Shown: one piece after another, positions 6,001-41,734 of the stretch | How the letters are laid out: each line of letters opens with the position of its first letter | Numbering within the stretch: the stretch's first letter is position 1 | Virus record (IMG/VR): IMGVR_UViG_3300009537_000055 | Location: 1-41,734 of that record | Length of the DNA stretch: 41,734 nucleotides | Strand: one strand, 5' to 3' | Source: a virus | Notes under the pieces: model-generated | The model's database searches: none | What the model was told of the DNA's origin: nothing | The model's input: the letters and a program-made list of their open reading frames with translations, nothing else | Translations under genes and position numbers: made by a program

Positions 6001-6478
6001 GTTGTCACCATCAACATCACCAAGTTTGTCACCTAGTGTTTCACCAAGTATTAGTCCATCAATTTCACCTAGTCTGTCACCTTCTTTGTCACCTAGTGTT
6101 TCACCAAGTTTGTCACCTAGTGTTTCACCAAGTGTCTCTCTTAGTCCCTCTTTATCACCTTCTTTGAGTCTAAGCGCTTCACCATCTGTTTCACCAAGTG
6201 CGAGTCCTTCTCTGTCTCCATCACTCTCGCCAAGCCTGTCGCCATCTGTGAGTCCTTCGTCATCTCTTAGTCCCTCCATTTCGCCTTCTGTTAGCCCTAG
6301 TGCGTCAATTTCACCATCAATCAGTCCATCTGCCTCACCCTCAGTTAGCCCATTACCTTGGACACCGAAACCAAAAATAAGCTCATCATGGACACCTAAA
6401 AGTAAAACAAGTAGTTCTTGGACACCAAAAAGCAAAGGTAGCAACATCTGGACACCTAAACCAAAAGAAAATGTATGA
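2..6478 (+). CDS. Giant Ser-Pro-rich phage fibre/adhesin (5' end missing)
   Basis: The frame is open from base 2, so the true start lies upstream; the GTG at 311 is internal. At least 2,158 residues are present. Order: (i) nt 2 to about 1560, a beta-propeller-like region with recurring motifs such as IDSNDIPHIAWIDSD and IDADNLPVIAYFNDSD, spaced as in blade repeats; (ii) nt 1571-5092, almost pure Ser-Pro-Ser-x where x is Leu, Ile or Val; (iii) nt about 5106-5790, a glycine-rich domain beginning MDILVVGGGG and ending GVVIFRYL, typical of phage tail-fibre glycine-rich domains; (iv) nt 5903-6352, a second Ser-Pro tract; (v) four ten-residue repeats beginning WTPK at the C-terminus. It lies just before the lysis cassette, which suits a late fibre gene. 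The role as an extended surface fibre or adhesin is inferred from composition and the Gly-rich domain; the host receptor is unknown. Confidence 0.75.
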   Translation, partial: AITVTTTGTVITGGARVVVRTSSGIPYVVVNDGGDIDVYKGNGTTPTSFSSNGTGPSNARYGHASAAIDSSDIIHIAYYDSNGKNSALRYVTYVTSSDSFSGDVSAQNIGGDTPTAPGTAIAIDSNDIPHIAWIDSDSNMGGNYDTVYYTNRVGGSWNTAVEIEGVTALKVCKGIDIAIDADNLPVIAYFNDSDNVIGTAQGGANNATSFTLFDISTSSTNFVSIAVDSNGNHNVVYEGGIGDADQYIRKHNYGDDWDTEAGGNGWQTEETVTTTINQTGHPKGLTIDGTDRYFFMEDTVNSDTAYWKSSNYGTWGTVQTLDTGTYQDVKSKWAFWVDNDSGGSLWSTTYYFNDSTPLDNDGAWTDDALAFNGSTANYAASSTSGTETTNELHGSGTNAPASGETVVGVLVSAYTASDNINGNVVVEVWTSGKGEKLGTINCDSGGDVTSPVWTNLTLTTPSGGWTWSVLQNLEAIIYLSSATAARVYKVQFEARTSSTELDYAFSDGTDIYFGTLDIITTSFSPSLSPSISPSISPSISPSISPSAAPGSFSPSISPSLSPSISPSISPSISPSISPSISPSISPSISPSISPSISPSLSPSLSPSISPSVSPSVSLSPSLSPSLSPSISPSISPSLSPSISPSLSPSLSPSLSPSVSPSVSLSPSLSPSISPSISPSISPSLSPSLSPSISPSVSPSVSLSPSLSPSISPSISPSISPSLSPSLSPSLSPSISPSISPSVSPSVSLSPSLSPSLSPSLSPSISPSVSPSVSLSPSLSPSLSPSLSPSISPSLSPSLSPSLSPSLSPSISPSVSPSVSLSPSISPSLSPSISPSLSPSLSPSLSPSLSPSLSPSISPSVSPSVSLSPSLSPSLSPSLSPSLSPSLSPSISPSVSPSVSLSPSLSPSISPSLSPSLSPSISPSISPSLSPSLSPSISPSVSPSVSLSPSLSPSLSPSLSPSLSPSVSPSVSLSPSLSPSLSPSLSPSISPSVSPSVSLSPSLSPSLSPSISPSISPSLSPSISPSISPSLSPSLSPSLSPSISPSVSPSVSLSPSLSPSISPSLSPSISPSVSPSVSLSPSLSPSLSPSLSPSISPSVSPSVSLSPSISPSLSPSLSPSLSPSLSPSLSPSISPSLSPSLSPSVSPSVSLSPSISPSLSPSLSPSISPSVSPSVSLSPSISPSLSPSISPSVSPSEGVSFSPSLSPSISPSLSPSLSPSLSPSVSPSVSLSPSISPSLSPSLSPSISPSVSPSVSLSPSLSPSLSPSISPSLSPSLSPSLSPSLSPSLSPSISPSVSPSVSLSPSLSPSLSPSLSPSISPSVSPSVSLSPSLSPSLSPSLSPSLSPSLSPSLSPSLSPSISPSISPSVSPSVSLSPSLSPSLSPSLSPSISPSVSPSVSLSPSLSPSLSPSISPSLSPSISPSLSPSLSPSLSPSISPSVSPSVSLSPSLSPSLSPSLSPSISPSLSPSLSPSLSPSLSPSISPSVSPSVSLSPSLSPSLSPSLSPSISPSVSPSVSLSPSLSPSLSPSLSPSISPSVSPSVSLSPSISPSLSPSLSPSVSPSLSPSLSPSLSPSISPSISPSISPSLSPSLSPSLSPSISPSVSPSVSLSPSLSPSLSPSLSPSISPSVSPSVSLSPSLSPSLSPSLSPSLSPSVSPSVSLSPSLSPSLSPSLSPSVSPSLSPSISPSLSPSISPSSDPLVMDILVVGGGGGGGSWGGGGGAGGMKDETSVSVAVDSYSVTVGTGGAGGSGAGSGSDGGSSAAGALVTVSGGGGGGGSSAVGRDGGSAGGGGGSASSQVGGTGVGGEGNDGGDNYPTAASRTAMGGGGGKSAVGQNGSSTKGGDGGDGTSSSITGSAVTYAGGGGGGADGREPMTGGAGGTGGGTDGTIGANANNATDGLGGGGGGGGYTTGYGTGGDGGNGVVIFRYLTASYGICTGGSKETDGDYTVHTFTSNGTFVAAAPGSFSPSISPSLSPSASPSVSPSVSLSPSVSPSISPSLSPSTSPSLSPSVSPSISPSISPSLSPSLSPSVSPSLSPSVSPSVSLSPSLSPSLSLSASPSVSPSASPSLSPSLSPSLSPSVSPSSSLSPSISPSVSPSASISPSISPSASPSVSPLPWTPKPKISSSWTPKSKTSSSWTPKSKGSNIWTPKPKENV
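1571..5092 (+). repeat. Main (Ser-Pro-Ser-x)n coding repeat tract
   Basis: About 1,174 codons read as tetrads SPSx. The variable residue is almost only Leu, Ile or Val. Val is nearly confined to the two tetrads that precede a two-residue SL insertion (pattern SVSPSVSLSPS), which I counted about 29 times by hand and which shifts the tetrad phase by two residues. The tract is interrupted near 1637-1660 (AAPGSF) and near 3590 (EGVSF). All six serine codons are intermixed, so the DNA repeat is far less regular than the protein repeat. Confidence 0.9.
5903..6352 (+). repeat. Second Ser-Pro coding repeat tract
   Basis: About 150 codons of SPSx repeats follow the glycine-rich domain. The variable position also takes Ala, Thr and Ser here, unlike the main tract. 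The tract starts with AAPGSFSPSISPSLSPS, the same string that restarts the main tract near 1637, which points to a duplication. Parts near 6040-6135 are also repeated at the DNA level. Confidence 0.85.
6358..6475 (+). repeat. Four C-terminal WTPK repeats
   Basis: A 30-nt unit is repeated four times, the last one cut short by the stop codon. Each encodes WTPK[P/S]K followed by a Ser/Asn-rich linker. Repeated tryptophan-bearing basic motifs at the extreme C-terminus could be an attachment or cell-wall-binding tail; this is inference. Confidence 0.8.
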
Positions 6479-10649: not shown

Positions 10650-10964
10650 TTACCAATTCATCTGTGTAAAGTTTTCTATTGCGTGCAATGGTATGTGTAA
10701 ATCGTTAGGTAAATCTTGTTTATCTTCTGCACTACTTGCATCTAAGTCACCTGTGTCATACACAACCCCAGCATCTTCTAGTATTACATAAAAGTCGTTC
10801 ACAGACTTTACTGTACCGTGATAGATATATCTTACACACCAAAACGTAAAAGTTTTACCTATTAAGTCTTTCAGCTCTTTTATTGGCTCTATCACCTTAT
10901 CCCCACTTTTCAGCTGTGACTCAATTGATTTGTATGTTTCTTCTGATACTTTTATTGTTTTCAT
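10650..10964 (-). CDS. Hypothetical early protein downstream of the hexamer repeat
   Basis: 104 residues beginning [18 protein letters not shown], an N-terminal strand-helix resembling the start of ribbon-helix-helix or antitoxin-like proteins, followed by a beta-rich part ([23 protein letters not shown]). I chose the ATG at 10964 because AAGGGGGTGAT lies at ideal distance before it. The open frame continues 50 codons further upstream only because the hexanucleotide repeat has no stops there. Function unknown. Confidence 0.55.
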
Positions 10965-10981
10965 ATATATCACCCCCTTTA

Positions 10982-11182
10982 TTACCTTGACCATGACCAT
11001 GACCTTGACCTTGACCATGACCATGACCATGACCTTGACCATGACCTTGACCTTGACCTTGACCATGACCATGACCTTGACCATGACCTTGACCTTGACC
11101 TTGACCCTGACCATGACCTTGACCTTGACCTTGACCCTGGGTCACTCCAATATTTTTGTAGTATTGTTTGTTTATTTTTCAT
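10982..11182 (-). CDS. Arg/Trp-Ser dipeptide-repeat protein encoded by a hexamer repeat
   Basis: 66 residues: a normal-looking N-terminus ([16 protein letters not shown]) followed by about 50 residues in which every second residue is Ser and the others are Arg, Trp or rarely Gly. All repeat serines are TCA, and Arg/Trp/Gly differ by one base (AGG/TGG/GGG). The start forms an ATGA overlap with the upstream stop, and its stop lies 17 nt before the next start, just ahead of that gene's Shine-Dalgarno site; both favour this frame over the two other stop-free frames. Function is unknown; a basic, aromatic RS-like peptide could bind nucleic acid or membrane. Confidence 0.45.
10984..11139. repeat. 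26-copy hexanucleotide tandem repeat
   Basis: Exactly 26 contiguous hexamers of the form ACCNTG on the plus strand: 14 ACCTTG, 10 ACCATG and 2 ACCCTG. All variation is at the fourth base. The array is stop-free in several frames on both strands. Such an array can change copy number by slippage without breaking any frame, because the unit is 6 nt. Confidence 0.95.
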
Positions 11183-11382
11183 TTTATCTTTGGATTAATC
11201 CAGTCAAAATATTGTCCTAGACTAAATTCTTTTGGTAACACCTTGATCTTCTTGAAAGACTTTAAGCCTTTATCTTGTTTCCAAACCTCTGTTATAGCTA
11301 CATAAACATTGCCGTCTTCGTCTCTTGAAATAGTTTTTATTGGCAACCTTTTTGTATCTTTTGTTAGTTTATTCATTTTCAT
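11179..11382 (-). CDS. Small basic hypothetical protein
   Basis: 67 residues, Lys-rich, beta-strand-like (GNVYVAITEVWKQD) with a C-terminal FDWINPKIK. No family recognised. The ATG at 11382 overlaps the end of the 38-residue upstream gene; an ATG two codons later (11376) is an alternative. Its TGA overlaps the next start in ATGA, so translation is coupled to the Arg/Trp-Ser repeat protein. Confidence 0.55.
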   Translation of the reverse strand: MKMNKLTKDTKRLPIKTISRDEDGNVYVAITEVWKQDKGLKSFKKIKVLPKEFSLGQYFDWINPKIK

Positions 11383-11485
11383 TCCACAACCACTGCCAAA
11401 AAATTACTAATAAAGATATTCCTACTAATCCAATAATTGTTATCATTAAAAATGGTAGTTTTATTATTTCTTTAATTGTTCTCAT
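11369..11485 (-). CDS. 38-residue single-pass membrane protein
   Basis: MRTIKEIIKLPF followed by a hydrophobic helix (MITIIGLVGISLLVIFW) and a short acidic tail (NENE). The basic start and acidic end predict N-in, C-out topology. The ATG overlaps the stop of the DUF2829-like gene (ATGA at 11482-11485) and the 3' end overlaps the next gene by 14 nt, filling an otherwise empty gap. Function unknown; small phage membrane proteins of this kind can act in superinfection exclusion or lysis timing, but nothing here shows that. Confidence 0.5.
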   Translation of the reverse strand: MRTIKEIIKLPFLMITIIGLVGISLLVIFWQWLWNENE

Positions 11486-11778
11486 ATTTCAAAATAATCT
11501 TTTCCAACTATGTCCCCTTCGCTAATAATCCAAGAATGAATTTGACCATCTGGATCGGTTAATGCAACACTTGCATCCTCTTTATTTAAAAATGCGAACC
11601 ATTTTTTGTCTTTCCATTCTTCTTTTGTAACCTTTTTACCCTTCACAATTGCTTGCATTGCTTCCCCAAAATCCATTTTCTTGTTTGGCTTTGGTTTAGG
11701 CTTTGGCAAAAAATCAGGGCTTTTCGATGGGTTAATTTTTTTTATATCCATTTTTTTCATCTCTTTAAAGTTTCTCAT
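11482..11778 (-). CDS. DUF2829/Tad2-like putative anti-Thoeris protein
   Basis: 98 residues. After a Lys/Pro linker (residues about 18-34, PKPKPKP) comes MDFGEAMQAIVKGKKVTKEE, then WKDKKWFAFL and, near the end, HSWIISEGDIVGKDYF. This order (FGEAlxAlkxGkkVxRxxW, then W.xSxxDxxaxDy/W) is the pattern I know from DUF2829, the family of the phage protein Tad2, which sequesters the cyclic-ADP-ribose signals of Thoeris immunity. The Lys/Pro N-terminal extension is unusual for the family. Its place among small early genes suits an anti-defence function. The family call is fairly good; the anti-Thoeris role is inferred. Confidence 0.6.
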   Translation of the reverse strand: MRNFKEMKKMDIKKINPSKSPDFLPKPKPKPNKKMDFGEAMQAIVKGKKVTKEEWKDKKWFAFLNKEDASVALTDPDGQIHSWIISEGDIVGKDYFEI

Positions 11779-12529
11779 GTCTAAATTCCTTTATTAATTC
11801 CATACTCTCACTAAGTTTCAGAGCTGCCACAAATGCCATGAACATTTTTGAATACCATTCACCGTCTTTTATAACCGCAACCTCTAGCGCTCCATCCTCT
11901 TTACCAACTTTGACAATCACTTGCCCTGCATATTTTTCTTTTGGGTATTCTTCTTCCCTTGCGAATCTATAAGCTGCCGTTTGTATTAACATTTCTGGAT
12001 AAATACCGCTAGATGTTTTCAGATCTCCTATGTACATTTTACCGTCAATCTCACAAATAAAGTCTAACGTCCCAGTATAGTTATATTTCTTGCTATACAC
12101 CTGCTGTTCACTTAAAAGAAACTTAACGTCATGAGCCTTTTGCCAATCTAAAAATCTCTGGACTGCTTTTTTTAAATTCTTATTTACTGGAACTGCCGGT
12201 TTTTTGCCATTTACATAATCCTCTACCCAGTTGTGTACAAATGTTCCCAAATTCCCAGCATCTACTTTCTTTTTCCAGTGTGCGCCTTTGGCACTTTCAA
12301 AAATTGTTATCAACTGTACCTCATCGTAAGACTTCCCCGGATCTATCTGATTTTTGAAATACTCCGCTGCCATTCTCGCTGCCCAACCTACAAGCGCTGG
12401 TTTGTTTATTATGTTTAGCGCTTGAGTAACACTTATTACTTTCTTGTCATTCACTGTGTATTTGTGACCATAGGCCTGGAACATAAGTTCTATCTCCCCG
12501 TTATATAGTGTTGTTTTAATTTTTGTCAT
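11765..12529 (-). CDS. RecB/Cas4-like PD-(D/E)XK exonuclease
   Basis: 254 residues. Motifs: GTFVH at 95-99 (His99), GTLDF with Asp156, IGDLKTS with Asp169 and Lys171, then IQTAAY with Gln183 and Tyr187. This is the RecB-family nuclease arrangement (motif II Asp, motif III D-x-K, QxxxY), so two-metal DNA cleavage is expected. No four-cysteine iron-sulfur cluster as in Cas4 is present. It probably supplies single-strand ends for phage recombination, near the DUF669-like protein and the SF2 helicase. It overlaps both neighbours by 14 nt. Confidence 0.8.
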   Translation of the reverse strand: MTKIKTTLYNGEIELMFQAYGHKYTVNDKKVISVTQALNIINKPALVGWAARMAAEYFKNQIDPGKSYDEVQLITIFESAKGAHWKKKVDAGNLGTFVHNWVEDYVNGKKPAVPVNKNLKKAVQRFLDWQKAHDVKFLLSEQQVYSKKYNYTGTLDFICEIDGKMYIGDLKTSSGIYPEMLIQTAAYRFAREEEYPKEKYAGQVIVKVGKEDGALEVAVIKDGEWYSKMFMAFVAALKLSESMELIKEFRHEKL

Positions 12530-28752: not shown

Positions 28753-29259
28753 ATGTCAGGAAAACCAGGTAAGCCAGCACCAAAAGGTAATACTTATAAT
28801 CTCAAGTATAAAGAAGAATACGTTGGGAAGGTTGACGAATACCTTAAAAAAAATAGAGACAGGAATGTAAAAGTCCTTAAAATGAGAAATAATGAAAAGG
28901 GCTATGTAACGTATGACACTAAGTTGAAAGTTAAATTGCCCACCATTTATGGTTTTGCGCTATATTTGGGTGTTGCTGAGAAAACTGTTCGAAATTGGGG
29001 TAAGGCATATAAGGAGTTCCAAGGTGCTTTAAATAAAATTAAAAATGAGCAAAAACAGAGATTGGTTAATAGTGGATTATCTGGAGATTATAATTCATCA
29101 ATTGCCAAACTTATTCTTTCTTCTGAATATGGAATGAAAGAAAGGACCGATAAAACAAGTGGTGATGAGCCAATAAATAATTTTAATGATGAACAAATCG
29201 ACAGGATCGCAGACCGTATCGCCAGAAGAAAAGGCGATGATGGTGGTACATCAAGCTAA
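28753..29259 (+). CDS. Terminase small subunit
   Basis: 168 residues. LPTIYGFALYLGVAEKTVRNW is the helix-turn-helix found in small terminase/DNA-packaging proteins. It is followed by FQGALNKIKNEQKQRLVNSG and SIAKLILSSEYGMKERTD, a strongly recurring end segment of gp3-type small terminases. It should bind the packaging site and recruit the large subunit encoded immediately after it (23-nt overlap with the chosen start). The Lys-rich N-terminus may add DNA contacts. Confidence 0.8.
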   Translation: MSGKPGKPAPKGNTYNLKYKEEYVGKVDEYLKKNRDRNVKVLKMRNNEKGYVTYDTKLKVKLPTIYGFALYLGVAEKTVRNWGKAYKEFQGALNKIKNEQKQRLVNSGLSGDYNSSIAKLILSSEYGMKERTDKTSGDEPINNFNDEQIDRIADRIARRKGDDGGTSS

Positions 29260-30679
29260 AAAAAATTTAATTGATTTCTCTATAGCTACTGATTCAGGAT
29301 ATCAAGATACTTGGTTTCATGAAACAATGGCTATTATTTTTCAATCTGTACTTCAAAAGGTTGAAAATGGTGAAGATGCAAGAGTTATCCTCACTGTTCC
29401 CCCTCGACATGGAAAATCAGAACTAGCTACTAAAAAATTCCCTGCATGGATGCTTGGGAAACATCCTGAGTGGCCTATTATGGTTGCTTCTTATTCTGGT
29501 GATTTGGCTGTTGATTTTGGACATGGCACTAGAGAAATTATGCAGTCCCCTTCTTATCAGGAAATTTTTAAAACCAGGTTGAGAGTGGATACTCAAGCAA
29601 AAGGAAAATGGATGACAGAAGAGAGTGGGGGATATATGGCTGCCGGTGCTGGTGGTGCAATTACTGGTAAAGGTTTCAAAATAGGAATTGTTGATGATAT
29701 TTTTAAAAATAGAGAAGAAGCTGAGTCCGAGACTATTCGTGAGTCCAGGTGGGATTGGTATAGATCAACATTTTACACTCGACAAGAAGGAAATACCGCT
29801 ATCATCGTTATTGGTACTCGTTGGCATACTGATGATCTTATTGGACGTTTAATTGAAAAACAAAAAGAAGATGAGGAGAATCAAGAAGAAGAATACGATA
29901 AATGGACACTAATTGAGTTTCCATCAATTGCCATTAAAGATGAGGATTATAGACAAAAAGGGGATGCTTTGTGGCCAGCTAAGTTTCCTGTTGAAAAGTT
30001 AAGAAAAACTGAAAATACTCTTGGTCCCTATGAATTTGCAGCTCTGTATCAATGTAATCCTATTACCTCAGCAAATCAAGAATTCCATGAAAAGTGGTTT
30101 AAGCCGAGATCATGGGCAGAAGTGGAAGCATTAAGTACAAGAAAATTTGCAACAATTGATCCTGGTGGAAAAGGTATTGAAAATGATACTACTGGAATAG
30201 TTAGAAACTATATAGATAGACAAGGTAAATGGAATATTAAAGCAATGGGAGTACATTTTGACTCGAAAGAATTATTAAATTATATTTTTAAATTACACGA
30301 TGAGGGTTTTGAGAAAATCGGGATAGAAAATACTGTTTATTTAAAAGCGGTTGAACCTTTTTATAAAGAGGCTTGTATAAAAATGAAGAAGTTTCCAAAT
30401 ATTGTGCCAATACCGCAACCGACAACACAGAAAGAAGTAAGGATTAGGGGTTTAATTCCAAGATATTCAAGTGGTAGTATTTTCCACATTGATAATGATT
30501 GTAGAGATTTAGAAAAAGAGTTGTTGGTTTTTCCCAAGGGTGCGCATGATGATGTTGCTGATGCTTTAGCAATGCAAAATGAAATTTCTGAAATTCAAAT
30601 TGATGAACACCAGCAAATAATTATAAGGGCACAGCGGGATGAAAGAGCTAAGCAGGTGGCTAAAAGTCATGGATTTTAA
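29237..30679 (+). CDS. Terminase large subunit
   Basis: 480 residues from the chosen start. VPPRHGKSELAT is the terminase Walker A variant, IGIVDDIFKN the Walker B, and WHTDDLIGRL and YEFAALYQCNP lie in the usual places. In the nuclease half, ATIDPGGKG, IGIENTVYL and AHDDVADALA supply the acidic metal ligands of the RNase-H-like domain. It packages DNA through the portal and cuts concatemers. The frame is open from an ATG at 29186, but that would overlap the small subunit by 74 nt; AAGG before the ATGATG at 29237/29240 supports the later start. Confidence 0.85.
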   Translation: MMVVHQAKKNLIDFSIATDSGYQDTWFHETMAIIFQSVLQKVENGEDARVILTVPPRHGKSELATKKFPAWMLGKHPEWPIMVASYSGDLAVDFGHGTREIMQSPSYQEIFKTRLRVDTQAKGKWMTEESGGYMAAGAGGAITGKGFKIGIVDDIFKNREEAESETIRESRWDWYRSTFYTRQEGNTAIIVIGTRWHTDDLIGRLIEKQKEDEENQEEEYDKWTLIEFPSIAIKDEDYRQKGDALWPAKFPVEKLRKTENTLGPYEFAALYQCNPITSANQEFHEKWFKPRSWAEVEALSTRKFATIDPGGKGIENDTTGIVRNYIDRQGKWNIKAMGVHFDSKELLNYIFKLHDEGFEKIGIENTVYLKAVEPFYKEACIKMKKFPNIVPIPQPTTQKEVRIRGLIPRYSSGSIFHIDNDCRDLEKELLVFPKGAHDDVADALAMQNEISEIQIDEHQQIIIRAQRDERAKQVAKSHGF

Positions 30680-32297: not shown

Positions 32298-33458
32298 ATG
32301 GATAATGCAAGACAAGAATTTTGGGGTGATTTGCAAGTAGACCTATTCGTTAAGAATAGTGCTGTTTACTTGGCAAATACATCTCTTGAAGACTTAATCC
32401 GCCAGGACGGAAGGAAAGCTCATAAGCCAATTTTGTCACATCCTCAGGTAGGAACTTATACGCCTCACAGCGATATCAGTTTTGAAACGAAGACGTCGAC
32501 AAAACAAACTCTTGAAGTTGATACTTTCGAGTATGCTGCGGAGGACATTGACGTGACTGAAGAAAAACAGACTCCTTATAATTTACTCGCACATTCTCTG
32601 CAATCAATTCGAAATGGATTGAATAACAGAGTTGAGCAAGAGTATTTGGGGAATATTACCAGTTCTGACCACAATATTAATGGTGGTACAGCTACAGAAG
32701 TTACTTCTGCAAATATCTTAGATATTTTAGAAGAAGCTGAAGGTAAACTCGGTGCGTTTGACGCCCCTTACGAAACTTCAATGCGTGCTGCGGTTCTAGG
32801 ACCACGCACAGTTGCGAAGCTAAGAAGGTCGAAGTCTGATAGAGAAACCCGACTTGGTGATTCAACTCTCAGAAATGGAGTTGTTGGACCATGGCAAGGA
32901 TGGACTGTTGTACAAAACAACAATCTTCCTTTCTCCGCTACACTTACAATAGCTACTAAACCTACAGATGGCGATACCGTCGTTGTTTCAGGTGTGACTT
33001 TCACATTTAAAACAGCTTTGGCTGCCGTTGCAGGTCAAGTTCTTATTGGCGCATCTGCTGCTACAGCACGTGCTAATTTGAAGAGTGCTATGGAAGGTGG
33101 AGGTACTGTTGACACAGATTATGTTGCACTAAGTTTGAGGGATCAATTCCTTCTTTACAGAAAGCGCAATATAGCTATCACTTCAGACGAAGCAATGGCT
33201 TTGACTGGATTTGGTGATATTTCTGTTAGCGAAACATTGACCGCTGCTGCGGACGTGTGGAGTGCACAGAAACAGGAATCAGCATTTATGATTAGGGGTG
33301 CCATCGATATGGTCTTACAGTTTATGGATCTTAAAGTCGCAGACAAAGAAAAAGGTTTCGCCACCTTACCTAAAGGTATAATTGGTGTAGGAACTAACAT
33401 GTTTGATGACGGAAAAGTCCTTTCTGTTAATTTGACCCAAGACGCTTCTAATTTCTGA
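32298..33458 (+). CDS. Major capsid protein, HK97-like with inserted domain
   Basis: 386 residues. The N-terminal part (FWGDLQVDLFVKNSAVYLAN, GTYTPHSDISFETKTSTKQ), the spine-like helix (LLAHSLQSIRNGLNNRVEQEYL) and the C-terminal strand region (ESAFMIRGAIDMVLQFMDLK) fit an HK97-fold capsid protein. Residues about 213-322 look like an inserted beta-rich domain (ATLTIATKPTDGDTVVVSG, VTFTFKTALAAVAGQVLIG), of a type also seen in phage decoration proteins; it may project from the capsid surface. The gene follows the scaffold and has a strong Shine-Dalgarno site. Confidence 0.75.
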   Translation: MDNARQEFWGDLQVDLFVKNSAVYLANTSLEDLIRQDGRKAHKPILSHPQVGTYTPHSDISFETKTSTKQTLEVDTFEYAAEDIDVTEEKQTPYNLLAHSLQSIRNGLNNRVEQEYLGNITSSDHNINGGTATEVTSANILDILEEAEGKLGAFDAPYETSMRAAVLGPRTVAKLRRSKSDRETRLGDSTLRNGVVGPWQGWTVVQNNNLPFSATLTIATKPTDGDTVVVSGVTFTFKTALAAVAGQVLIGASAATARANLKSAMEGGGTVDTDYVALSLRDQFLLYRKRNIAITSDEAMALTGFGDISVSETLTAAADVWSAQKQESAFMIRGAIDMVLQFMDLKVADKEKGFATLPKGIIGVGTNMFDDGKVLSVNLTQDASNF

Positions 33459-33619: not shown

Positions 33620-34273
33620 ATGTTAAAAAATTTAGAAGTAAAAGAATTTTTAAGTAGACTCGCAGATGGTATTTATGCCCTGCGTAGTTTTCTCATGCCA
33701 GCTTTTCCTACAATAAATCCACGAACTGCAACTGTGACAGCAAAAACTGCTGACTACACAATTACAGACGAAGATCTGGAAACACCTACCATTTTTACAA
33801 ATGAAGGTGATAGTGGAACTCTAGTACTTTCTTTGCCTGCGGTTCTAGAATCTAAGGCTAAAGTCCTTAGGGTCCATTTACTAGCTGCACAAATTGTTCA
33901 GCTTAATCCATCAGGTCAAGAAAAGGTCAACTACAATGGTGACGCCGTTGTGGGTGAACATCTTGCAATAGCAGGAACTATTGGGAATTATGTTGAGTTA
34001 TTTTGTGACGGTGTTCAGTGGATTGTTACACAAGCCAACGGAGTGGTTACGAAAGCAGCAGACGCATCTGTTTCGCCTAGTGTAAGCCCTAGTGTAAGCC
34101 CTAGCGCAAGTGCCAGTCCTAGTGTAAGCCCTAGCGTTTCGCCTAGCGTTTCACCTAGCGTTTCGCCTAGTGTAAGCCCTAGCGTTTCACCTAGCGTTTC
34201 ACCTAGCGTTTCGCCTAGTGTAAGCCCTAGCTTGAGTCCTAGCATAAGTCCTAGTGTAAGCCCTTCGGCTTAA
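33620..34273 (+). CDS. Capsid decoration-like protein with Ser-Pro tail
   Basis: 217 residues. Residues 1-28 are an amphipathic helix. Residues about 33-145 are a beta-rich domain (ATVTAKTADYTITDEDLETP, then NYVELFCDGVQWIVTQ), a pattern typical of small phage surface or decoration modules. Residues 151-217 are SPSx repeats dominated by Val, ending PSPSA-like. It shares this repeat with the giant fibre gene at the window start. A Shine-Dalgarno sequence lies 36 nt upstream, with a hairpin between it and the ATG. It is likely displayed on the capsid because it follows the capsid gene. Confidence 0.6.
   Translation: MLKNLEVKEFLSRLADGIYALRSFLMPAFPTINPRTATVTAKTADYTITDEDLETPTIFTNEGDSGTLVLSLPAVLESKAKVLRVHLLAAQIVQLNPSGQEKVNYNGDAVVGEHLAIAGTIGNYVELFCDGVQWIVTQANGVVTKAADASVSPSVSPSVSPSASASPSVSPSVSPSVSPSVSPSVSPSVSPSVSPSVSPSVSPSLSPSISPSVSPSA
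34072..34270 (+). repeat. Ser-Pro-Ser-Val coding repeat conserved at DNA level
   Basis: Units CCTAGYGT followed by AAGC or TTTCR recur in near-identical form across the tract. Unlike the large tract at the window start, the repeats here are nearly identical in DNA, which indicates recent expansion. Confidence 0.85.
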
Positions 34274-34781: not shown

Positions 34782-35585
34782 ATGAAAGTAAGTGTAGTCA
34801 TCCCAGCATATAGAGATCCCTGGGTACACCCTACGATTGACTCACTTTTAGAAAACTCCGAACTTGGCGATCAAATGGAAATAATTGTTGTTTTGGATGG
34901 TTATTGGCCAGAAACTCCAATTAGACAAGATGATCGAGTAGTGGTAGTCCATTTAGGTAAAAATCGTGGTATGCGTGAGGCTATCAATGCTGGTATAAAA
35001 GTTGCTAGAGGTGAGTTTATACTGCGTGCAGATCAACACTGTGCATTTGCCAAGGGCTATGACAGGATACTTTCGGAGGATTGCCAGCCAAATTGGATTA
35101 TGACGGCTACACGATATTTCTTAGACCCTGTTAAGTGGGAAGTTATGAAAGATTTAGAGCCTGTAATTACTGAAAAGTTGGTAATTCAAGGTGAAAGAAA
35201 GTTCTCTGGTGTTAAATGGCGTAGTCGAGACAAAAAGTATGAGGATCAAGATTTAATAGAATCAATGGCAATGCAGGGTAGTTGTTGGCTCATGCCTAAA
35301 GCTTGGTGGGAAAAGGTCATAGTGAAACTTCAGACTGAAGGATACGGCCAAATGTATCAAGACAGCCATGAGATGATTTTTAAGACGTGGAAAGCAGGAG
35401 GTAAGCTGATGGTAAGTAAAAAGACTTGGTTTGCACACAAACATCGTAGTTTTACTGCCGGGAGACACGAGGGGACTAAGCAGAATCCGTCAAATAGGGG
35501 TGTTAATTTTGATGCTGGTAGATATGCCCTCAAAATTTGGAGGGATTACTATGAAAAAGAAATAAAACCAGCATGGAAGATTTAA
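34782..35585 (+). CDS. DxH-type GT-A glycosyltransferase 1
   Basis: 267 residues. MKVSVVIPAYRDP is the nucleotide-sugar-binding start of GT2-like enzymes and VVLDGYWPE follows. The metal site reads ADQHC (Asp84-x-His86-Cys87) instead of DxD, as in polypeptide GalNAc-transferases (GT27). The later MAMQGSCWL, the Trp/Glu-bearing helix and the basic AHKHR end match the acceptor side of its two paralogues here. It should transfer a sugar from a nucleotide donor; the acceptor is unknown. It overlaps the next gene by 13 nt. Confidence 0.75.
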   Translation: MKVSVVIPAYRDPWVHPTIDSLLENSELGDQMEIIVVLDGYWPETPIRQDDRVVVVHLGKNRGMREAINAGIKVARGEFILRADQHCAFAKGYDRILSEDCQPNWIMTATRYFLDPVKWEVMKDLEPVITEKLVIQGERKFSGVKWRSRDKKYEDQDLIESMAMQGSCWLMPKAWWEKVIVKLQTEGYGQMYQDSHEMIFKTWKAGGKLMVSKKTWFAHKHRSFTAGRHEGTKQNPSNRGVNFDAGRYALKIWRDYYEKEIKPAWKI

Positions 35586-36379
35586 GCATAATAATACCAT
35601 CTTATAATGAACTTTACCTCAACAAGACTGTGAGAGATATTCTTGATAAGGCTACGGGAAAAATAAAAATCTTTGTAAATATAGATGGAATTATGCCAAA
35701 AATATTAGTCAAAGATAGTCGTGTTACTTATCATCATAGTAAAAAACCCATTGGGATGAGAGATGGAATTAATCTTGGTATTGAAAAAACCGAATCCAAA
35801 TGGATCATGAAAGTGGATGCACATTGTTTATTTGCAAAAGGATTTGATGAAGTACTTAAAAGAGATTGTAAAAAGAATTGGCTTATGGTTCCTAGACGGT
35901 ATTCGCTAAATGCTGTTGGATGGAAAAGGGGGAAAGGGAGATATAAAGACTATCATTATATACACAGTCCTATTTGGAGTAAGCGTGGATGGAGGATGAC
36001 ACCGCAGGTTTGGTATAAGCAGAATGAAAAAGAAATTGATGACACAATGAGTATCCAGGGGAGTTGTTGGTTTGCAGACAGAGAATTTTATAAAAAGACC
36101 GTAGGGAAACTAGACACAAATAGATATGGAAGTTTTGCTGGAGATCAGTTGGAAATAGGGATGAAATATTGGACGAAAGGTGGAAGGATTAAAGTAAATA
36201 AAAAGACTTGGTATGCACATCTTTTTAAAAACACTAACTATTATGATAGTAGCGATGCTATAAGAAAATATAAAGTTAATCGTGAGGTGTTTAGAGGATA
36301 CGAAACATCTGTGATTGATTGGAAAGAAGATATAATAAAATTAGTAGATAAATTTAAACCTGTACCAACTTGGAATTAA
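35573..36379 (+). CDS. DxH-type GT-A glycosyltransferase 2
   Basis: 268 residues, paralogous to its upstream neighbour: LSIIIPSYNE start, KVDAHCLFAKGFD (Asp82-x-His84-Cys85) metal site, MSIQGSCWFADREF, GDQLEIGMKYWTKGG and WYAHLF. The order SIQGS, then E....W..GG, then H is like the C-terminal half of GT27 enzymes. A Trp/Lys-rich insert (about residues 115-155) may hold the acceptor. Overlaps gene 1 by 13 nt; ends 1 nt before the methyltransferase. Confidence 0.75.
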   Translation: MEDLSIIIPSYNELYLNKTVRDILDKATGKIKIFVNIDGIMPKILVKDSRVTYHHSKKPIGMRDGINLGIEKTESKWIMKVDAHCLFAKGFDEVLKRDCKKNWLMVPRRYSLNAVGWKRGKGRYKDYHYIHSPIWSKRGWRMTPQVWYKQNEKEIDDTMSIQGSCWFADREFYKKTVGKLDTNRYGSFAGDQLEIGMKYWTKGGRIKVNKKTWYAHLFKNTNYYDSSDAIRKYKVNREVFRGYETSVIDWKEDIIKLVDKFKPVPTWN

Positions 36380-36380
36380 T

Positions 36381-37010
36381 ATGGAAACACCACTTTGTAA
36401 AATAGCATATAAATACGGAACCGATAAGTGTCCGAAGATTAAGCACAATTATACGCCCTATTATTACGACCTTCTTAAAGACAAGAAAATTAAAAAGGTA
36501 TTAGAAATGGGTATTGGTAACTATCCCGACATGAAACACGTTGACAAGGCGTATGACAAAAAACTTAAAAGAGTTTATATAAAAGGTGCAAGTCTCAAAA
36601 TGTGGAGAGATTTCTTCCCAGAAGCACAAATCTATGGGGCTGATGTGTTACCTGAAACAATGTTTGAGGACGAAAGAATAAAGACTTTTGTATGTGATGA
36701 GAGGGATGAAAAAAGCATTAAAGAATTAATTAAAGAAACGGGATCAGATATAGATTTGTTTGTTGATGATGGTTCACATAAAAAAGAACACCAAATACAT
36801 TTAGCCAAGACTATTCTCCCATTACTTAAAGAGGGTGTCATTTATATTATTGAAGATGTAGGATGGACTGACCATATTGTTAAAGAGTTGGATGAATATA
36901 TCTGCAAAGTCCCTAATTTGGTGAAAGTTACAGAACATACCAGCAAAGATAGACTAATTGTTGTCAAGAAAAGACCTAAAGATGATAATTTGATTGTTAT
37001 AAACAAATGA
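36381..37010 (+). CDS. Sugar O-methyltransferase-like protein
   Basis: 209 residues. KYGTDKC, VLEMGIG (40-46, the SAM-binding loop), GASLKMW, IYGADVLPE and LFVDDGSHKKEHQI follow the order seen in class I methyltransferases that act on sugars of macrolides and glycans (MycE/TylF type). VDDGSH is the metal-binding catalytic stretch of that group. Lying directly between glycosyltransferase genes, it probably methylates the glycan they build. It overlaps the next gene by 4 nt (ATGA). Confidence 0.7.
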   Translation: METPLCKIAYKYGTDKCPKIKHNYTPYYYDLLKDKKIKKVLEMGIGNYPDMKHVDKAYDKKLKRVYIKGASLKMWRDFFPEAQIYGADVLPETMFEDERIKTFVCDERDEKSIKELIKETGSDIDLFVDDGSHKKEHQIHLAKTILPLLKEGVIYIIEDVGWTDHIVKELDEYICKVPNLVKVTEHTSKDRLIVVKKRPKDDNLIVINK

Positions 37011-37930
37011 AAAAATTTAGCGAATATCAACATGTATCAGGTGAACCAATGACTGATCGGGATAAAAAAGAAGCCAACAGTAAATTTTGGGGTAAGGGTA
37101 AATGGGACAACTTCATACTTCCTCTTTTGCCCAAGAGATGTGAAGACATGACTTTTGTCGACATGGGATGTAATGCAGGTCTATTTTTAGGGTTTGCTAA
37201 GAAAAAAGGATTTCAAGACGTAAGAGGTGTTGATTCAAACGAAGAAGCTATTAAAAAAGCTTCAATTAATGAAGAAGGGATCAAAACTTGGTGTGGAGAT
37301 ATGATAGATGTAGACCTTCCACTTGCCGATTATGTAGTTTTTGTAAACTCCCATTATTACCTAAATGTGGGCGACTTTATTCTTTTACTGGACAAACTAA
37401 GGAATCGAACGAGATATTGTTTAATTGTTTCTGGGGACAAAAGAACATATCCACACCTGGCCTCATCAAGGGCAGATGACATAAGAAATTATTTTAAGGA
37501 CTGGAAAGAGGTTGACGGAGTTGACCAAATTGATCCAACTGGCGACCCTTCACCTAGAAAACTTTGGACATTAGCTTTTAAAAGTCCTTCACTAAAAAGA
37601 GTTTCGATGATGGGACTAGATTGTGGAAACAATGTGCAAAGTGGTTTTTATAAAGAATTAGATGATGGTGTTCTATACGACAAAACAAAATATTATAAAA
37701 TACTTAAAGGATACAGATTAAAGAAAAATCCAGAATCATTGTCTATATGGACTAAAGATGAATTAGTCAAATTCGCAAAAGATAAAGTGGCATTATATGA
37801 AAGTATAAAAAATGATGGACTAATGCAACCAATTGTTGTAAATAAAATTGGTAAAATACTGGATGGAAACCATAGATACATGATGTTGAAACATTTGGGA
37901 CACAAGACAATTTTAGTAAGAGAAATATGA
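37007..37930 (+). CDS. Class I methyltransferase fused to a ParB/sulfiredoxin-like domain
   Basis: 307 residues. Residues about 45-190: a SAM methyltransferase with VDMGCNAGLF (51-60), GVDSNEEAI and a C-terminal VVFVNSHYYLN strand. Residues about 255-307: KNDGLMQPIVVNKIGKILDG then NHRYMMLKHLGHKTI, the pattern of the ParB N-terminal/sulfiredoxin-like fold, including the Gly-Asn-His-Arg motif (287-290). That fold hydrolyses CTP in ParB and has other nucleotide roles. The two domains are linked by about 60 residues. The fusion is unusual; the substrate is unknown. Confidence 0.65.
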   Translation: MKKFSEYQHVSGEPMTDRDKKEANSKFWGKGKWDNFILPLLPKRCEDMTFVDMGCNAGLFLGFAKKKGFQDVRGVDSNEEAIKKASINEEGIKTWCGDMIDVDLPLADYVVFVNSHYYLNVGDFILLLDKLRNRTRYCLIVSGDKRTYPHLASSRADDIRNYFKDWKEVDGVDQIDPTGDPSPRKLWTLAFKSPSLKRVSMMGLDCGNNVQSGFYKELDDGVLYDKTKYYKILKGYRLKKNPESLSIWTKDELVKFAKDKVALYESIKNDGLMQPIVVNKIGKILDGNHRYMMLKHLGHKTILVREI

Positions 37931-38565
37931 AAGGTGCAATAATATACATTAGTTCAAACAGAGAAGATCCAAAATTTGAGGAGAAAATTATTGCTGACAT
38001 GATGTCTAAAAAGGGTGACTTAGATGTTTGTGCCGTCACACAACATCCAATGCCATTTGATAAACATATTCGGGTAGGAGATGTTGGAACATCTGGTTTT
38101 AATTTTTGTAGACAATTGCAGATGGCAGTTGAGATGACCAAAGCTGATTATGTAATTTCTTGTGAGGCTGATTGTTTATACTCTCCAGATTACTTTACTT
38201 TTGTGCCTCCAGAGCTAGACAGGGTTTATAGAAATACCAATAATTACATTATGCCTTATAAAAAAGAATATTGGCACGCTAAAAGCAGTCAAACAGCTTT
38301 TCAAATTGCGGGTAGAGAATTTTTGCTTAATCGGTTAAATTATTTACTTAAAGGACAACCACAATGGAATACTGACATGAAAAATTTTCCTAAAGAAATC
38401 AAAAAACCATTTTTAGAAGGATGGGATACTTTTAAAACTAAATATCCTTGTTTTACAATTAAGACTGGTGATGCAATGAGGAATCATTCAGCATCAGGTA
38501 GAGAAAAATTTTATGAACTCCCCTATTGGGGAACAGCTAAGGAGGTGAGGGCAAAATGGCTATGA
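37927..38565 (+). CDS. Glycosyltransferase-like protein with ExD motif
   Basis: 212 residues. MKGAIIYISSNRED, then DYVISCEADCLYSPDYF with Glu80-x-Asp82 in the place of a DxD, then RNHSASGREKF near the end. It is paralogous to the protein at 39226-39948, which has FFTEHDVLYHPSHF at the equivalent site. A GT-A-like fold is likely; the family is not identified. It overlaps both neighbours (4 and 10 nt) and contains the Shine-Dalgarno site of the next gene. Confidence 0.55.
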   Translation: MKGAIIYISSNREDPKFEEKIIADMMSKKGDLDVCAVTQHPMPFDKHIRVGDVGTSGFNFCRQLQMAVEMTKADYVISCEADCLYSPDYFTFVPPELDRVYRNTNNYIMPYKKEYWHAKSSQTAFQIAGREFLLNRLNYLLKGQPQWNTDMKNFPKEIKKPFLEGWDTFKTKYPCFTIKTGDAMRNHSASGREKFYELPYWGTAKEVRAKWL

Positions 38566-39239
38566 CTAATATTAGAATGGGATTAAGACGTATGAGATTG
38601 CCAGTAGATGATGACGGCAAGGTAGAAATACCTAATTGTCAAAGGCGAGAATTGCCTAGATTTTTTAAAGAAATAGGTTTTAAAAAGGGGGTAGAGATTG
38701 GAACTTATTTAGGAGATTTTGCTAGATGGTTTGGGAAAGAGGGTTTGGAATTACATACAGTAGATCCTTATCTGGCCTATGATGATTATCACGAGGGGCG
38801 TAAGGATTTTCAGAAACGACAGGAAGAAATATACAAGACAGCTCAAAGAAAATTGGAGCCGTTTCCAAATGTAAAGATTGTTAGAAAAACCTCAATGGAG
38901 GCTTTGGCAGATTTTGAAGATAACAGTCTTGACTTTGTTTATATAGATGGACACCACGGATTTAAGTACGTGGCCGAAGATATATATTGCTGGTCAAAGA
39001 AAGTTCGTGAGGGCGGTATAATTTCTGGTCACGATTACGCTAATTATATTAAACCTGGTAGTCCATATACTTTACAAGTAAAGTTTGCGGTTGACGCTTA
39101 TGTTAAAGCTTTCAGGATTAAACCTTGGTATGTTTTAGGAAGACAAGAAAGGTTGCCAGGAGAGATAAGAGAAACATTTAGAAGTTGGATGTGGTATAAA
39201 ACCACACCTAAACCGCACAAACCAAATGCAGAAGTCTAA
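38556..39239 (+). CDS. Class I SAM methyltransferase
   Basis: 227 residues. VEIGTYLGDFA (46-56) is the SAM loop, HTVDPYLAYDD the second strand, FVYIDGHHGFKYVAEDIYCW the catalytic strand with an IDG-H-H motif, and GGIISGHDY the motif typical of Methyltransf_24-type enzymes that act on sugars or small molecules. It has a strong Shine-Dalgarno (GGAGGTGAGG, 38541-38550) inside the previous gene, unlike most cassette genes. It overlaps the next gene by 14 nt. Confidence 0.75.
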   Translation: MAMTNIRMGLRRMRLPVDDDGKVEIPNCQRRELPRFFKEIGFKKGVEIGTYLGDFARWFGKEGLELHTVDPYLAYDDYHEGRKDFQKRQEEIYKTAQRKLEPFPNVKIVRKTSMEALADFEDNSLDFVYIDGHHGFKYVAEDIYCWSKKVREGGIISGHDYANYIKPGSPYTLQVKFAVDAYVKAFRIKPWYVLGRQERLPGEIRETFRSWMWYKTTPKPHKPNAEV

Positions 39240-39948
39240 GGGTTGTATTTACTATACTGATAACAGGCCAAATCCGAAATTTTTGGATATATTTCAAAAA
39301 AATCTTCGGAATAGTTTTGATGGAGAAATAGTCTGTGTCTCTCTTAAACCAACAGATTTTGGTGATAAAAGAATTGTGATGGATGGTTTGGTGCGTAGTT
39401 ATCCAACAATGATAACCCAAATTTTAACTGCACTAGAAGCCTCCACGGCAGATGTGGTTTTCTTTACAGAACACGATGTTTTGTATCATCCCTCACATTT
39501 TGAAATAAATCCTACAAGGGATGACATTTATTATTATAATATTAATAATTGGCGATGGATGTATGGGATGCCAACAGCAATTACTTACGACGAACTCTCC
39601 TCTTTATCAGGAATGTGTTGCAATAGGGAGTTGGCAATTAAGCATTATAAATACCGTATAAAAATGATAGAGGAAATAGGTCTGGACAAATTTAGAAGTA
39701 GAGAACCACGCTGGGCTAGAAGATTTGGATATGAACCTGGTACAAAACCAAAACGTAGAGGAGGAATTACTAATGAAGGCCATGAAAAATGGAAGTCTGA
39801 ATTTCCAAATGTAGATGTGAGACATAATCAGACTTTTAGCAAACCCAAAGTGACATTAAAAGAGTTTAAGCATTTACCTAAAACCTGGAATGAAATACCA
39901 TATACAGATATACCAGGATGGAATTTGAAAGAAGTTTTTAAATTATGA
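39226..39948 (+). CDS. Glycosyltransferase-like protein with EHD motif
   Basis: 240 residues. GCIYYTDNRPNPKFL, then ADVVFFTEHDVLYHPSHFEI (Glu82-x-Asp84), YYYNINNWRWMYG and LSGMCCNRELAIKHY, then VDVRHNQTFSK. It is paralogous to 37927-38565. The segment of Tyr/Trp-rich residues after the ExD resembles acceptor loops. It overlaps neighbours by 14 and 4 nt. The substrate is unknown; a role in building the same glycan is inferred from context. Confidence 0.55.
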   Translation: MQKSKGCIYYTDNRPNPKFLDIFQKNLRNSFDGEIVCVSLKPTDFGDKRIVMDGLVRSYPTMITQILTALEASTADVVFFTEHDVLYHPSHFEINPTRDDIYYYNINNWRWMYGMPTAITYDELSSLSGMCCNRELAIKHYKYRIKMIEEIGLDKFRSREPRWARRFGYEPGTKPKRRGGITNEGHEKWKSEFPNVDVRHNQTFSKPKVTLKEFKHLPKTWNEIPYTDIPGWNLKEVFKL

Positions 39949-40145
39949 TAATAGCACCGCCACACACACAGGAAGTACAATTCGACAATGGAACCAAGTT
40001 GACATTGAGGAATGTAGAAAAGATAGAACAGGGCAATTGGACACACATTGTCGCTAATGGGGGCAAGGAATATATTACCAACACCAGCAGGATCCTGTTT
40101 GTAAAAGTATATCCAAAAGGAAAAACAGATTACGAAAAAAAATGA
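39945..40145 (+). CDS. Small hypothetical protein between glycosyltransferase genes
   Basis: 66 residues, beta-rich (EVQFDNGTKLTLRNVEKIE, then WTHIVANGGKEYIT) with a basic end. ATGA-type overlaps with both neighbours make it translationally coupled. No family recognised. It could be an accessory or chaperone for the enzymes, but nothing in the sequence shows it. Confidence 0.6.
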   Translation: MIIAPPHTQEVQFDNGTKLTLRNVEKIEQGNWTHIVANGGKEYITNTSRILFVKVYPKGKTDYEKK

Positions 40146-41107
40146 AAGACCTAAGCATATTAATACCAGCCAGGAACGAAATGTTTTTAAAGAATACTAT
40201 TGAAGACATCCTCAAAAATATTGAAATGGACACAGAAGTGATCGCTGTCCTGGATGGTGAATGGTCTAACCCCCCATTAGAACAACACGAAAGAGTCAAT
40301 ATTATTTATGTTAATAAAGCAATAGGGCAACGTGCAGCAACTAACTTGGCTTGTAAATTAAGCGAAGCTGAATATGTGATGAAGCTCGACGCACATTGTT
40401 CTTTTGATAAAGGATTTGATCGAAAGATGATCGACATGTTTAAAGAGGTTGGTGACGATGTAACAATGCTTCCTGTTATGCGAAATTTGTGGGCTTTTGA
40501 TTGGAAGTGTCATTCGTGTGGTTGGAAAACATATCAAGCCAATGGACAAGAAGGAATGAGGTGTGGAGATTGTAATTCAAAGCGTATGAAAAGAAAAATG
40601 ATATGGCGAGGTAAAACTAATCCCCAAAGTACATCTTATTGTTTTAACGCAACCCCTCAATTTAAATACTTTGAAGATTATAAACATCGCCCTAAGTATG
40701 TTGAGGATAAGAAAAATAAAAAAGTCACTGAGACGATGAGCATTCAAGGTTCATGTTTTATGTTGACAAGAAAAAAATACTGGGAATTAAATATTTGTGA
40801 TGAGACTTTTGGTAGTTGGGGGAATCAGGGAATTGAGGTTGCTTGTAAAACATGGTTGACGGGGGGCAGGGTGTTAGTGAACCATAATACATGGTATGCA
40901 CATTTGTTTAGGACAAATCACAATTTAAAATTCCCCTGGCCTGTTTCTGGTAGAGAGCAATTGAAAACTAAAGAAAAAGTGAGAAAAGCAATCTACAGTG
41001 GTAAACTTCCGCATCAAAAATATCCTGTTTCTTGGTTAGTTAAAAAGTTCTGGCCTGTGCCTGATTGGACACAAGAAGATTTAGATAAATTGGAAACTTC
41101 TCTCTAA
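40142..41107 (+). CDS. DxH-type GT-A glycosyltransferase 3 with zinc-ribbon insertion
   Basis: 321 residues. LSILIPARNE start, VLDGEW, KLDAHCSFDKGFD (Asp83-x-His85-Cys86), MSIQGSCFMLTRKKYWEL (200-216), WGNQGIEVACKTWLTGG (226-242) and WYAHLFRTNHNLKFPWP. The last three blocks resemble the C-terminal catalytic half of polypeptide GalNAc-transferases. A zinc ribbon is inserted at residues 123-144 (Cys123, Cys126, Cys141, Cys144), absent from the two paralogues. The insert is between the metal site and the acceptor half and may bind the acceptor or a partner. The gene overlaps its upstream neighbour by ATGA. Confidence 0.75.
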   Translation: MKDLSILIPARNEMFLKNTIEDILKNIEMDTEVIAVLDGEWSNPPLEQHERVNIIYVNKAIGQRAATNLACKLSEAEYVMKLDAHCSFDKGFDRKMIDMFKEVGDDVTMLPVMRNLWAFDWKCHSCGWKTYQANGQEGMRCGDCNSKRMKRKMIWRGKTNPQSTSYCFNATPQFKYFEDYKHRPKYVEDKKNKKVTETMSIQGSCFMLTRKKYWELNICDETFGSWGNQGIEVACKTWLTGGRVLVNHNTWYAHLFRTNHNLKFPWPVSGREQLKTKEKVRKAIYSGKLPHQKYPVSWLVKKFWPVPDWTQEDLDKLETSL

Positions 41108-41113
41108 TTATTC

Positions 41114-41119
41114 TAGAAT
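41114..41119 (+). promoter_or_regulatory. Promoter -10 before the last methyltransferase gene
   Basis: TAGAAT lies 6 nt before the ATG at 41126; TTGGAA (41090-41095) with an 18-nt spacer is a fair -35. No Shine-Dalgarno site. Confidence 0.5.
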
Positions 41120-41125
41120 GAAACA

Positions 41126-41734
41126 ATGGGGGTACTACAACCAAGTGAATACGACATATCATATTTTGATGGAAGCAAGACAACCTACAAACATAATGCA
41201 GGTTATTCTAAATATGAGAGATGGTATAGAAAAGATGGTGCAGACTCATTAGGTGAATTCTGGAAAGATTACGCGAAAAGATGGGTGGATCATCTTGTGT
41301 TATCAGGCAAAAAAGTACTTGAGATAGGATCAGCTAAAGGATTTTTAGTTGAGGACATGAGAGAAATGGGAGTGGATGCTTGGGGACTAGATGTTTCCCA
41401 GTATGCTTATGATCAAGCCTCAGAGGTGGTTAAGTCTTACCTAACAGTGGGAGATGCTAGAGATGTAGTATCTACTTACAAGAACAAAGAATGGGATGTG
41501 ATATTTTCAGCAAGATTTGTTGAATGTATACCAGAAGCAGATATACCTCAGTTGGTAGCAGATATGAACGCAAAAAGTAAACTTCAAGTTCATGTGTTGG
41601 ACGACTTCACTGGTGTAAAATCAGGTGCGGGTCAATTCTACATTCAGCACACACTTCAAGAATGGTTAGACAATTATAACTGGGCAAAAGGTACTAAATT
41701 AGTGCCCCAAGAGAATATAAATACAATTCTAACT
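41126..41734 (+). CDS. Class I SAM methyltransferase (3' end missing)
   Basis: The frame is open to the end of the window (203 codons). VLEIGSAKGFLVEDM is the SAM-binding loop, GLDVSQYAYDQA the second motif, and YLTVGDARDVV and WDVIFSARFVECIP the next strands. This layout is a standard small-molecule or sugar methyltransferase. FDGSKTTYKHNAGYSKYERW at the N-terminus is distinctive of glycan-cluster methyltransferases. It is the fourth methyltransferase of the cassette, so the cluster continues beyond the window. Confidence 0.75.
   Translation, partial: MGVLQPSEYDISYFDGSKTTYKHNAGYSKYERWYRKDGADSLGEFWKDYAKRWVDHLVLSGKKVLEIGSAKGFLVEDMREMGVDAWGLDVSQYAYDQASEVVKSYLTVGDARDVVSTYKNKEWDVIFSARFVECIPEADIPQLVADMNAKSKLQVHVLDDFTGVKSGAGQFYIQHTLQEWLDNYNWAKGTKLVPQENINTILT

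Follow-up and report, generated by a model that had tools for sequence, protein, structure and literature searches.

GT27-like transferases and Ser-Pro repeat virion proteins: a predicted mucin-like O-glycosylation pathway in a metagenomic phage

Glycosylation of virion proteins by a phage's own enzymes has so far been demonstrated in a few mycobacteriophages only. In Che8, Corndog, and Myrna, as summarized in PMC12363180, phage glycosyltransferases act on virion proteins; those of Che8 (gp108 to gp110) and Corndog (gp38) are linked to the capsid and tail tube. The present analysis concerns a linear virus record of 41.7 kb (IMG/VR record IMGVR_UViG_3300009537_000055, positions 1 to 41,734; hereafter the window), and specifically a cassette (34782-41734) that encodes three DxHC glycosyltransferases (GTA, GTB, and GTC), two ExD-type GT-A-fold transferases (ExD1 and ExD2), and four methyltransferases (M1 to M4). 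These genes lie on one strand in the order GTA, GTB, M1, M2, ExD1, M3, ExD2, GTC, M4. Sequence comparison and structural modelling suggest that the cassette probably specifies a cytosolic, stepwise O-glycosylation pathway, whose acceptors would be Ser-Pro-Ser-x (SPSx) tracts in two of the phage's own virion proteins: a small post-capsid protein and a large fibre.

In Che8, gp108 joins a GT2 domain to Methyltransf_24 inside the glycosyltransferase cluster; the window cassette likewise links soluble phage glycosyltransferases to glycan-modifying enzymes. However, the enzymes are not the same. Che8 gp110 is GT25-like, gp108 and gp109 are GT2-like, and all three fall outside the DxH and ExD families: profiles for GTA/GTB, GTC, and ExD gave at most 14 bits to gp108 (generic GT2) and no match to gp110. 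Nor is an SPS mucin-like acceptor described for the mycobacteriophages in the part of their story that the citing literature relates.

Two other systems share some of this organization. At the Fap1 and related serine-rich repeat protein (SRRP) loci, a Ser-rich repeat protein adjoins its own cytosolic glycosyltransferase cluster, with an initiator, sequential extenders, and some two-domain enzymes (PMC5207161). There, the initiator is Gtf1/Gtf2, and the acceptor is a secreted cell-wall adhesin rather than a virion protein. Gtf1/Gtf2 belongs to family GT4; no GtfA/GtfB-type initiator was found among the window cassette glycosyltransferases, all of which match a different Pfam family (below). In chlorovirus PBCV-1 (A064R/A061L), two glycosyltransferases and a methyltransferase are fused, and a capsid glycan is both assembled and methylated by this viral system (PMC9614988). 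The domain logic is that of the fusions described below; the glycan, however, is N-linked, and the virus infects eukaryotic algae.

A literature search, with most subscription journals outside it, found no description of GT27-like phage enzymes or of SPS-linked glycosylation. Named phages gave no DNA match to the cassette; by tblastn, GTA had two weak partial matches there and GTC had none. (An SPS probe also found no match in named phages, a result that is uninformative given the low-complexity filter.) Phage virion glycosylation is thus already known from the mycobacteriophages; what appears new is the GT27-like enzyme paired with a dedicated mucin-like acceptor.

GT27 comprises the polypeptide GalNAc-transferases (GalNAc-Ts), which are defined by an N-terminal transmembrane anchor and commonly carry a C-terminal ricin-type lectin domain (PMC4245494). 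A first-pass annotation of the window had recognized GT27 sequence blocks in all three DxHC enzymes. Part of this holds throughout: the metal motif is DQHC in GTA (34782-35585) and DAHC in GTB (35573-36379) and GTC (40142-41107), and QGS is present in all three. The remaining blocks are distributed unevenly. The WG..G.E..W..GG block is complete in GTC alone, where WGNQGIEVACKTWLTGG comes close to the Gal/GalNAc-T motif WGGEN.E...W..GG; GTA and GTB retain just E..W..GG, at a spacing of their own. GTA and GTC have H..R, for which GTB has H..K.

Pfam assigns the three proteins to Glycos_transf_2 (PF00535) only, at 8e-15 for GTA, 3.7e-10 for GTB, and 8.8e-13 for GTC. GTB is a paralogue of GTA (34% identity), and the two were aligned together with a family of 58 homologues, in which D84, H86, Q165, S167, E197, G207, and H219 are invariant. 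The GTC alignment (28 homologues) has invariant residues D83, H85, W226, G227, H254, and R257. Residues D84-x-H86 and H219 align with the DAHC and GHVFR segments, respectively, of GalNAc-T1.

More sensitive comparisons also lead to GT27. GTA as a single sequence retrieved GalNAc-T4 from the PDB (1.2e-5, residues 3-219), and the GTA/GTB profile matched GalNAc-T1 at 6.2e-13 over positions 4-252 of 264, whereas GT2 enzymes matched the N-terminal half only. With the GTC profile, GT27 was again the best family (GalNAc-T1, 4.5e-8). The AlphaFold2 model of GTA has a predicted local distance difference test score (pLDDT) of 95.6 and a predicted template-modelling score of 0.92, and its best 50 Foldseek matches are all GT27. 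Structural re-alignment of this model placed GalNAc-T2 first (Z score 26.2; 2.5 Å over 252 of 267 residues), with GalNAc-Ts throughout ranks 1-29 (Z 26.2 to 23.1); the next matches were a Leptospira glycosyltransferase (22.2, over 182 residues), WrtF (21.0), RmlT (20.5), and K4CP (20.2). When the GTA model and the GTA/GTB and GTC profiles are set against both families, then, GT27 is the best match, at full length for the GTA model and the GTA/GTB profile, and GT2 the lesser, as the first-pass annotation had anticipated.

The likeness to GT27 therefore embraces the whole-enzyme GT-A fold, the DxHC metal motif, the later metal-binding His, E..W..GG, and candidate acceptors with Ser beside Pro. 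The differences are equally plain: identity is about 17-20%, the setting is a phage or bacterium, and the candidate acceptors are Ser-only. No transmembrane anchor was found in the cassette enzymes (maximal 19-residue hydropathy 0.46-0.93), and Pfam reported no lectin domain in GTA, GTB, or GTC (267-321 aa). For these two reasons the enzymes are termed GT27-like, and are not filed in GT27. Their prediction as GT27-like GT-A-fold enzymes is supported. GtrB-type C-terminal membrane helices are absent as well, no hydrophobic segment being present; the only trace of this group is a weak phrog_841 match (E 0.006) at the GTA N-terminus. Separately, GTC residues ~123-144 form a zinc-ribbon-like C..C...C..C insertion that is not in GalNAc-Ts. 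Three of its cysteines are invariant in the 28 homologues, and the GTC profile search also retrieved ribosomal protein eL37 across this segment.

The candidate acceptors lie on the same (plus) strand. Genes for the large terminase subunit (29186-30679; phrog_38, 2.1e-95) and the major capsid protein (32298-33458; phrog_267, 3.4e-19) are followed by those for a 217-aa protein (33620-34273), whose C-terminus is an SPSx tail (~34072-34270), and for a 114-aa protein; the cassette comes next. The large fibre (ORF1, 2-6478) is at the other end, its 5' end cut by the window. Both Ser-Pro virion proteins had been noted at first pass, and both are indeed present; the fibre tract, drawn then as continuous from 1571 to 6352, is really two tracts, ~1571-5095 and 5903-6274, separated by a Gly-rich domain.

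The fibre contains about 311 SPS units, almost all of them followed by Leu, Ile, or Val. At the DNA level, 247 of the 311 twelve-base SPSx units differ, and the tract serines are drawn from both codon families (TCN, 440; AGY, 240), indicating that a protein repeat is being kept. This diversity and codon mixture rule out chance or plain DNA slippage as the origin of the repeat. Among the ~680 serines, 276 have Pro at both −1 and +3, and 311 are followed directly by Pro (+1). GT27 enzymes favour adjacent Pro (PMC4245494), and the SPSx tracts fit this preference. (A 1191-aa frame on the minus strand, 1507-5082, runs antisense to the tract; in all likelihood it results from the repeat and is not a gene.)

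If the SPSx tracts are acceptors, then enzymes and repeats should be found together. IMG/VR yielded 56 relatives of GTA, in many of which the order GTA-ExD1-M3-ExD2-GTC recurs. These contigs encode an SPS protein immediately 5' of GTA, a long SPS fibre immediately 3' of GTC, or both; a fibre gene of the ORF1 kind is thus found in relatives directly after GTC. A Ser-rich gene lies within 4 kb of GTC in 32 of the 44 contigs that have at least 600 bp beyond it; 14 further contigs end directly after GTC, consistent with repeats interrupting the sequence. A strict SPS tract accompanies 35 of the 56 GTA loci and none of 80 random loci.

The converse survey selected contigs by the SPS DNA pattern alone, and controls by a random 14-mer. 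DxH enzymes were present in 30 of 77 SPS-chosen records and 0 of 50 random ones (Fisher 2e-8, not corrected for relatedness), and near 32 of 120 SPS loci and 0 of 120 random loci. These enzymes are mostly adjacent to the SPS gene, and are on its strand at all 31 loci measured. Presence also depends on repeat number: 30 of 50 records with at least ten SPSx units have a DxH enzyme, compared with none of the 27 with fewer.

Unlike the contig surveys, a comparison within the phage's own lineage controls for lineage. The window's terminase and capsid proteins together retrieved 42 contigs. Six carry both cassette and SPS, 36 carry neither, and none carries one alone; among contigs that extend at least 3 kb beyond the capsid gene, the counts are four with both and 16 with neither. 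All six cassette-bearing relatives have the SPS tail on the small post-capsid protein. In five cassette-less relatives, the orthologue (68-70% identity) stops at ...GVVTKEA, with no tail. A wider SPS pattern was absent from all 20 cassette-less records searched and present in all six controls. The co-occurrence expected from the first-pass annotation is thus found at each level: adjacency, strand, repeat number, and covariation within the lineage.

The remaining cassette enzymes would modify the glycan further. Two ExD proteins and four methyltransferases had been listed originally; all six reading frames are present, although the calls for M1 (36381-37010; Methyltransf_24 type, PF13578 1.2e-4; phrog_21658 2.2e-10) and M2 (37007-37930; PF13489 7.7e-6; phrog_723 5.9e-8) fall under the curated Pfam cut-offs. 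M3 (38556-39239) is a Methyltransf_24 protein (PF13578, 6.6e-16), and M4 (41126-41734), which runs off the window end, scores above cut-off (PF13649 2.1e-6; PF08241 2.6e-5). ExD1 (37927-38565), which has no confident Pfam match, aligns with ExD2 (39226-39948), including invariant residues E82 and D84 (ExD2 numbering). According to this alignment and the ExD2 AlphaFold2 model (pLDDT 93.9), both belong to a single family whose fold is GT-A. The family has no PDB sequence match, and its best structural matches are tied GT-A folds (top Z 12.6), so the label is kept at GT-A fold and no specific family is assigned.

Single proteins that unite GTC and ExD occur in other SPS phages (for example, L100, 543 aa, and L147, 529 aa), and in two contigs a Methyltransf_24 domain follows as well (L146, 871 aa; L140, 929 aa). 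Such fusions make joint, stepwise action on one acceptor likely. M2 is itself composite: its methyltransferase-like domain is coupled to a C-terminal ParB-N-like domain (PF02195 6.5e-5, also just under cut-off), an unexpected partner for a glycosylation enzyme. By eye, a similar segment not reported by Pfam lies between the ExD and methyltransferase parts in L140 (7124-9910) and L146 (781-3393).

Gene content, predicted fold, active-site residues, linkage, covariation, and fusions are established by these comparisons; from them we infer acceptor, donor, order of action, linkage type, and benefit. Specifically, the resemblance to GT27 in fold, together with the active-site residues and the linkage, suggests that, inside the infected cell, one or more of GTA, GTB, and GTC would move sugar from a nucleotide-sugar onto SPSx serines. 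The ExD transferases would then lengthen the glycan, as the GTC-ExD fusion suggests, and Methyltransf_24-type enzymes would cap or O-methylate it, as suggested by the triple fusion. Assembly of the modified proteins into particles would yield mucin-like coated fibres and head tails. The original proposal, that the phage sugar-coats its own fibres, gains support as a prediction from fold, profiles, and co-occurrence. It points to a different and widespread version of phage self-glycosylation, in uncultured phages, that resembles animal mucin glycosylation. It also gives the SPS-repeat proteins of metagenomic phages a concrete, testable function; raises the prospect of using small, soluble polypeptide transferases of bacterial type in glycoengineering; and is relevant to the origin of GT27 enzymes.

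The cassette is not confined to viruses. Among prokaryote genomes, the best matches come almost entirely from Patescibacteria; the others are one Micrarchaeota, one Nanoarchaeota, and one Planctomycetota metagenome-assembled genome (MAG). In a tree, viral and cellular copies are intermixed, with at least 13 label changes, and on the large chromosomal contigs L062 and L067 the cassette lies among cellular and nucleotide-sugar genes without prophage surroundings. Within one Patescibacteria phylum, the cassette is rare (5 of 380 genomes), and a search of 380 genomes of one such phylum gave no match to the window's terminase. The host is judged from the glycosyltransferase relatives only; on this evidence, a Patescibacteria host is likely. 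The cassette has probably been exchanged with Patescibacteria and is probably carried by phages of that group, which makes it relevant to how phages of these tiny episymbiotic bacteria attach or hide. Finely balanced, in our view, is the broadest proposition: that mucin-type O-glycosylation exists outside eukaryotes, GT27-like DxH enzymes, ExD transferases, and methyl caps having co-evolved with Ser-Pro virion domains in Patescibacteria phages to build mucin-coated particles, as a module exchanged with host chromosomes.

Several smaller observations concern these cellular relatives. Terminase matches occur in three Patescibacteria MAGs (G136 C31, 6084-7547; G145 C49, 8922-10448; G165 C43, 12785-14323); each contains at least one in-frame stop (TGA or TAA), which could reflect prophage decay or errors in assembly. 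A Y1-transposase-like gene, below the Pfam cut-off and with a bacterial SH3 domain too, lies upstream of the chromosomal cassette in L067 (8107-9129) and L088 (1022-2128), and L062 7506-8204 resembles it by eye only; it is possible that this gene moves the cassette. Directly after GTA in the L062 cassette is an asparagine-synthase/glutamine-amidotransferase gene (10784-12004), which may amidate sugar or peptide.

Some of the evidence weighs against the proposed pathway. Characterized GT27 enzymes favour Thr, and SPS tracts are nearly pure Ser. The ExD enzymes have no assignable family. The lineage pattern may reflect one gain or loss event. About 20 of the 50 records with at least ten SPSx units have no DxH enzyme (some are fragments), so SPS tracts can occur without it. 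Nine such long-tract records were inspected, and four have other GT2-type matches, one of them below the Pfam cut-off: L110 (G012), L143 (G044), L172 (G071), and L115 (G017; the sub-threshold case). These genes are perhaps a second, convergent route to a like acceptor. Finally, the chromosomal copies beside nucleotide-sugar genes would fit a function in surface polysaccharides as well.

This last point introduces an alternative: the cassette alters a host surface glycan (for instance, for a superinfection block or changed episymbiont attachment), and the SPS fibres are mere neighbours. Sequence inspection of the homologous chromosomal cassettes in Patescibacteria, which lie alongside WecB-, RmlD-, and NodU-like genes, is consistent with it, as is the intermixed tree. 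Yet the cassette enzymes have no membrane helices, and the cassette reading frames include neither a flippase nor an initiating phosphosugar transferase. In addition, the cassette is flanked by capsid and fibre genes, and its presence varies together with that of the SPS tail on a virion protein. A host-surface role is unlikely on these grounds. More improbable still is modification of other virion proteins (such as the capsid, as in Che8), with the SPS tracts as unmodified spacers of the same lineages. The capsid and tail-tube glycosylation that PMC12363180 summarizes is a precedent, and some SPS tracts do lack an enzyme; however, the tail tracks the cassette even though the capsid protein is conserved (64-86% identity) in relatives with and without it, and enzyme presence depends on SPSx repeat number. 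Hypermodification of phage DNA bases, for which DNA-glycosylating phage enzymes (cited, at second hand, in PMC12619734) supply a model, is scarcely credible, given that the best fold match is to polypeptide transferases, that the genes are linked to fibre genes, and that the thymidylate-synthase/dCMP-hydroxymethylase family (PF00303) is found in none of 36 cassette-bearing records (fragments included, window outside the list); a Tet_JBP search found nothing, as did its control.

Elsewhere in the window, GGTCAA/GGTCAT hexamers on the minus strand form a tandem array of 153 bp (10984-11136), immediately upstream of a small gene. The array may be untranslated; if translated, it would give a QGQGHG or MVKV repeat.

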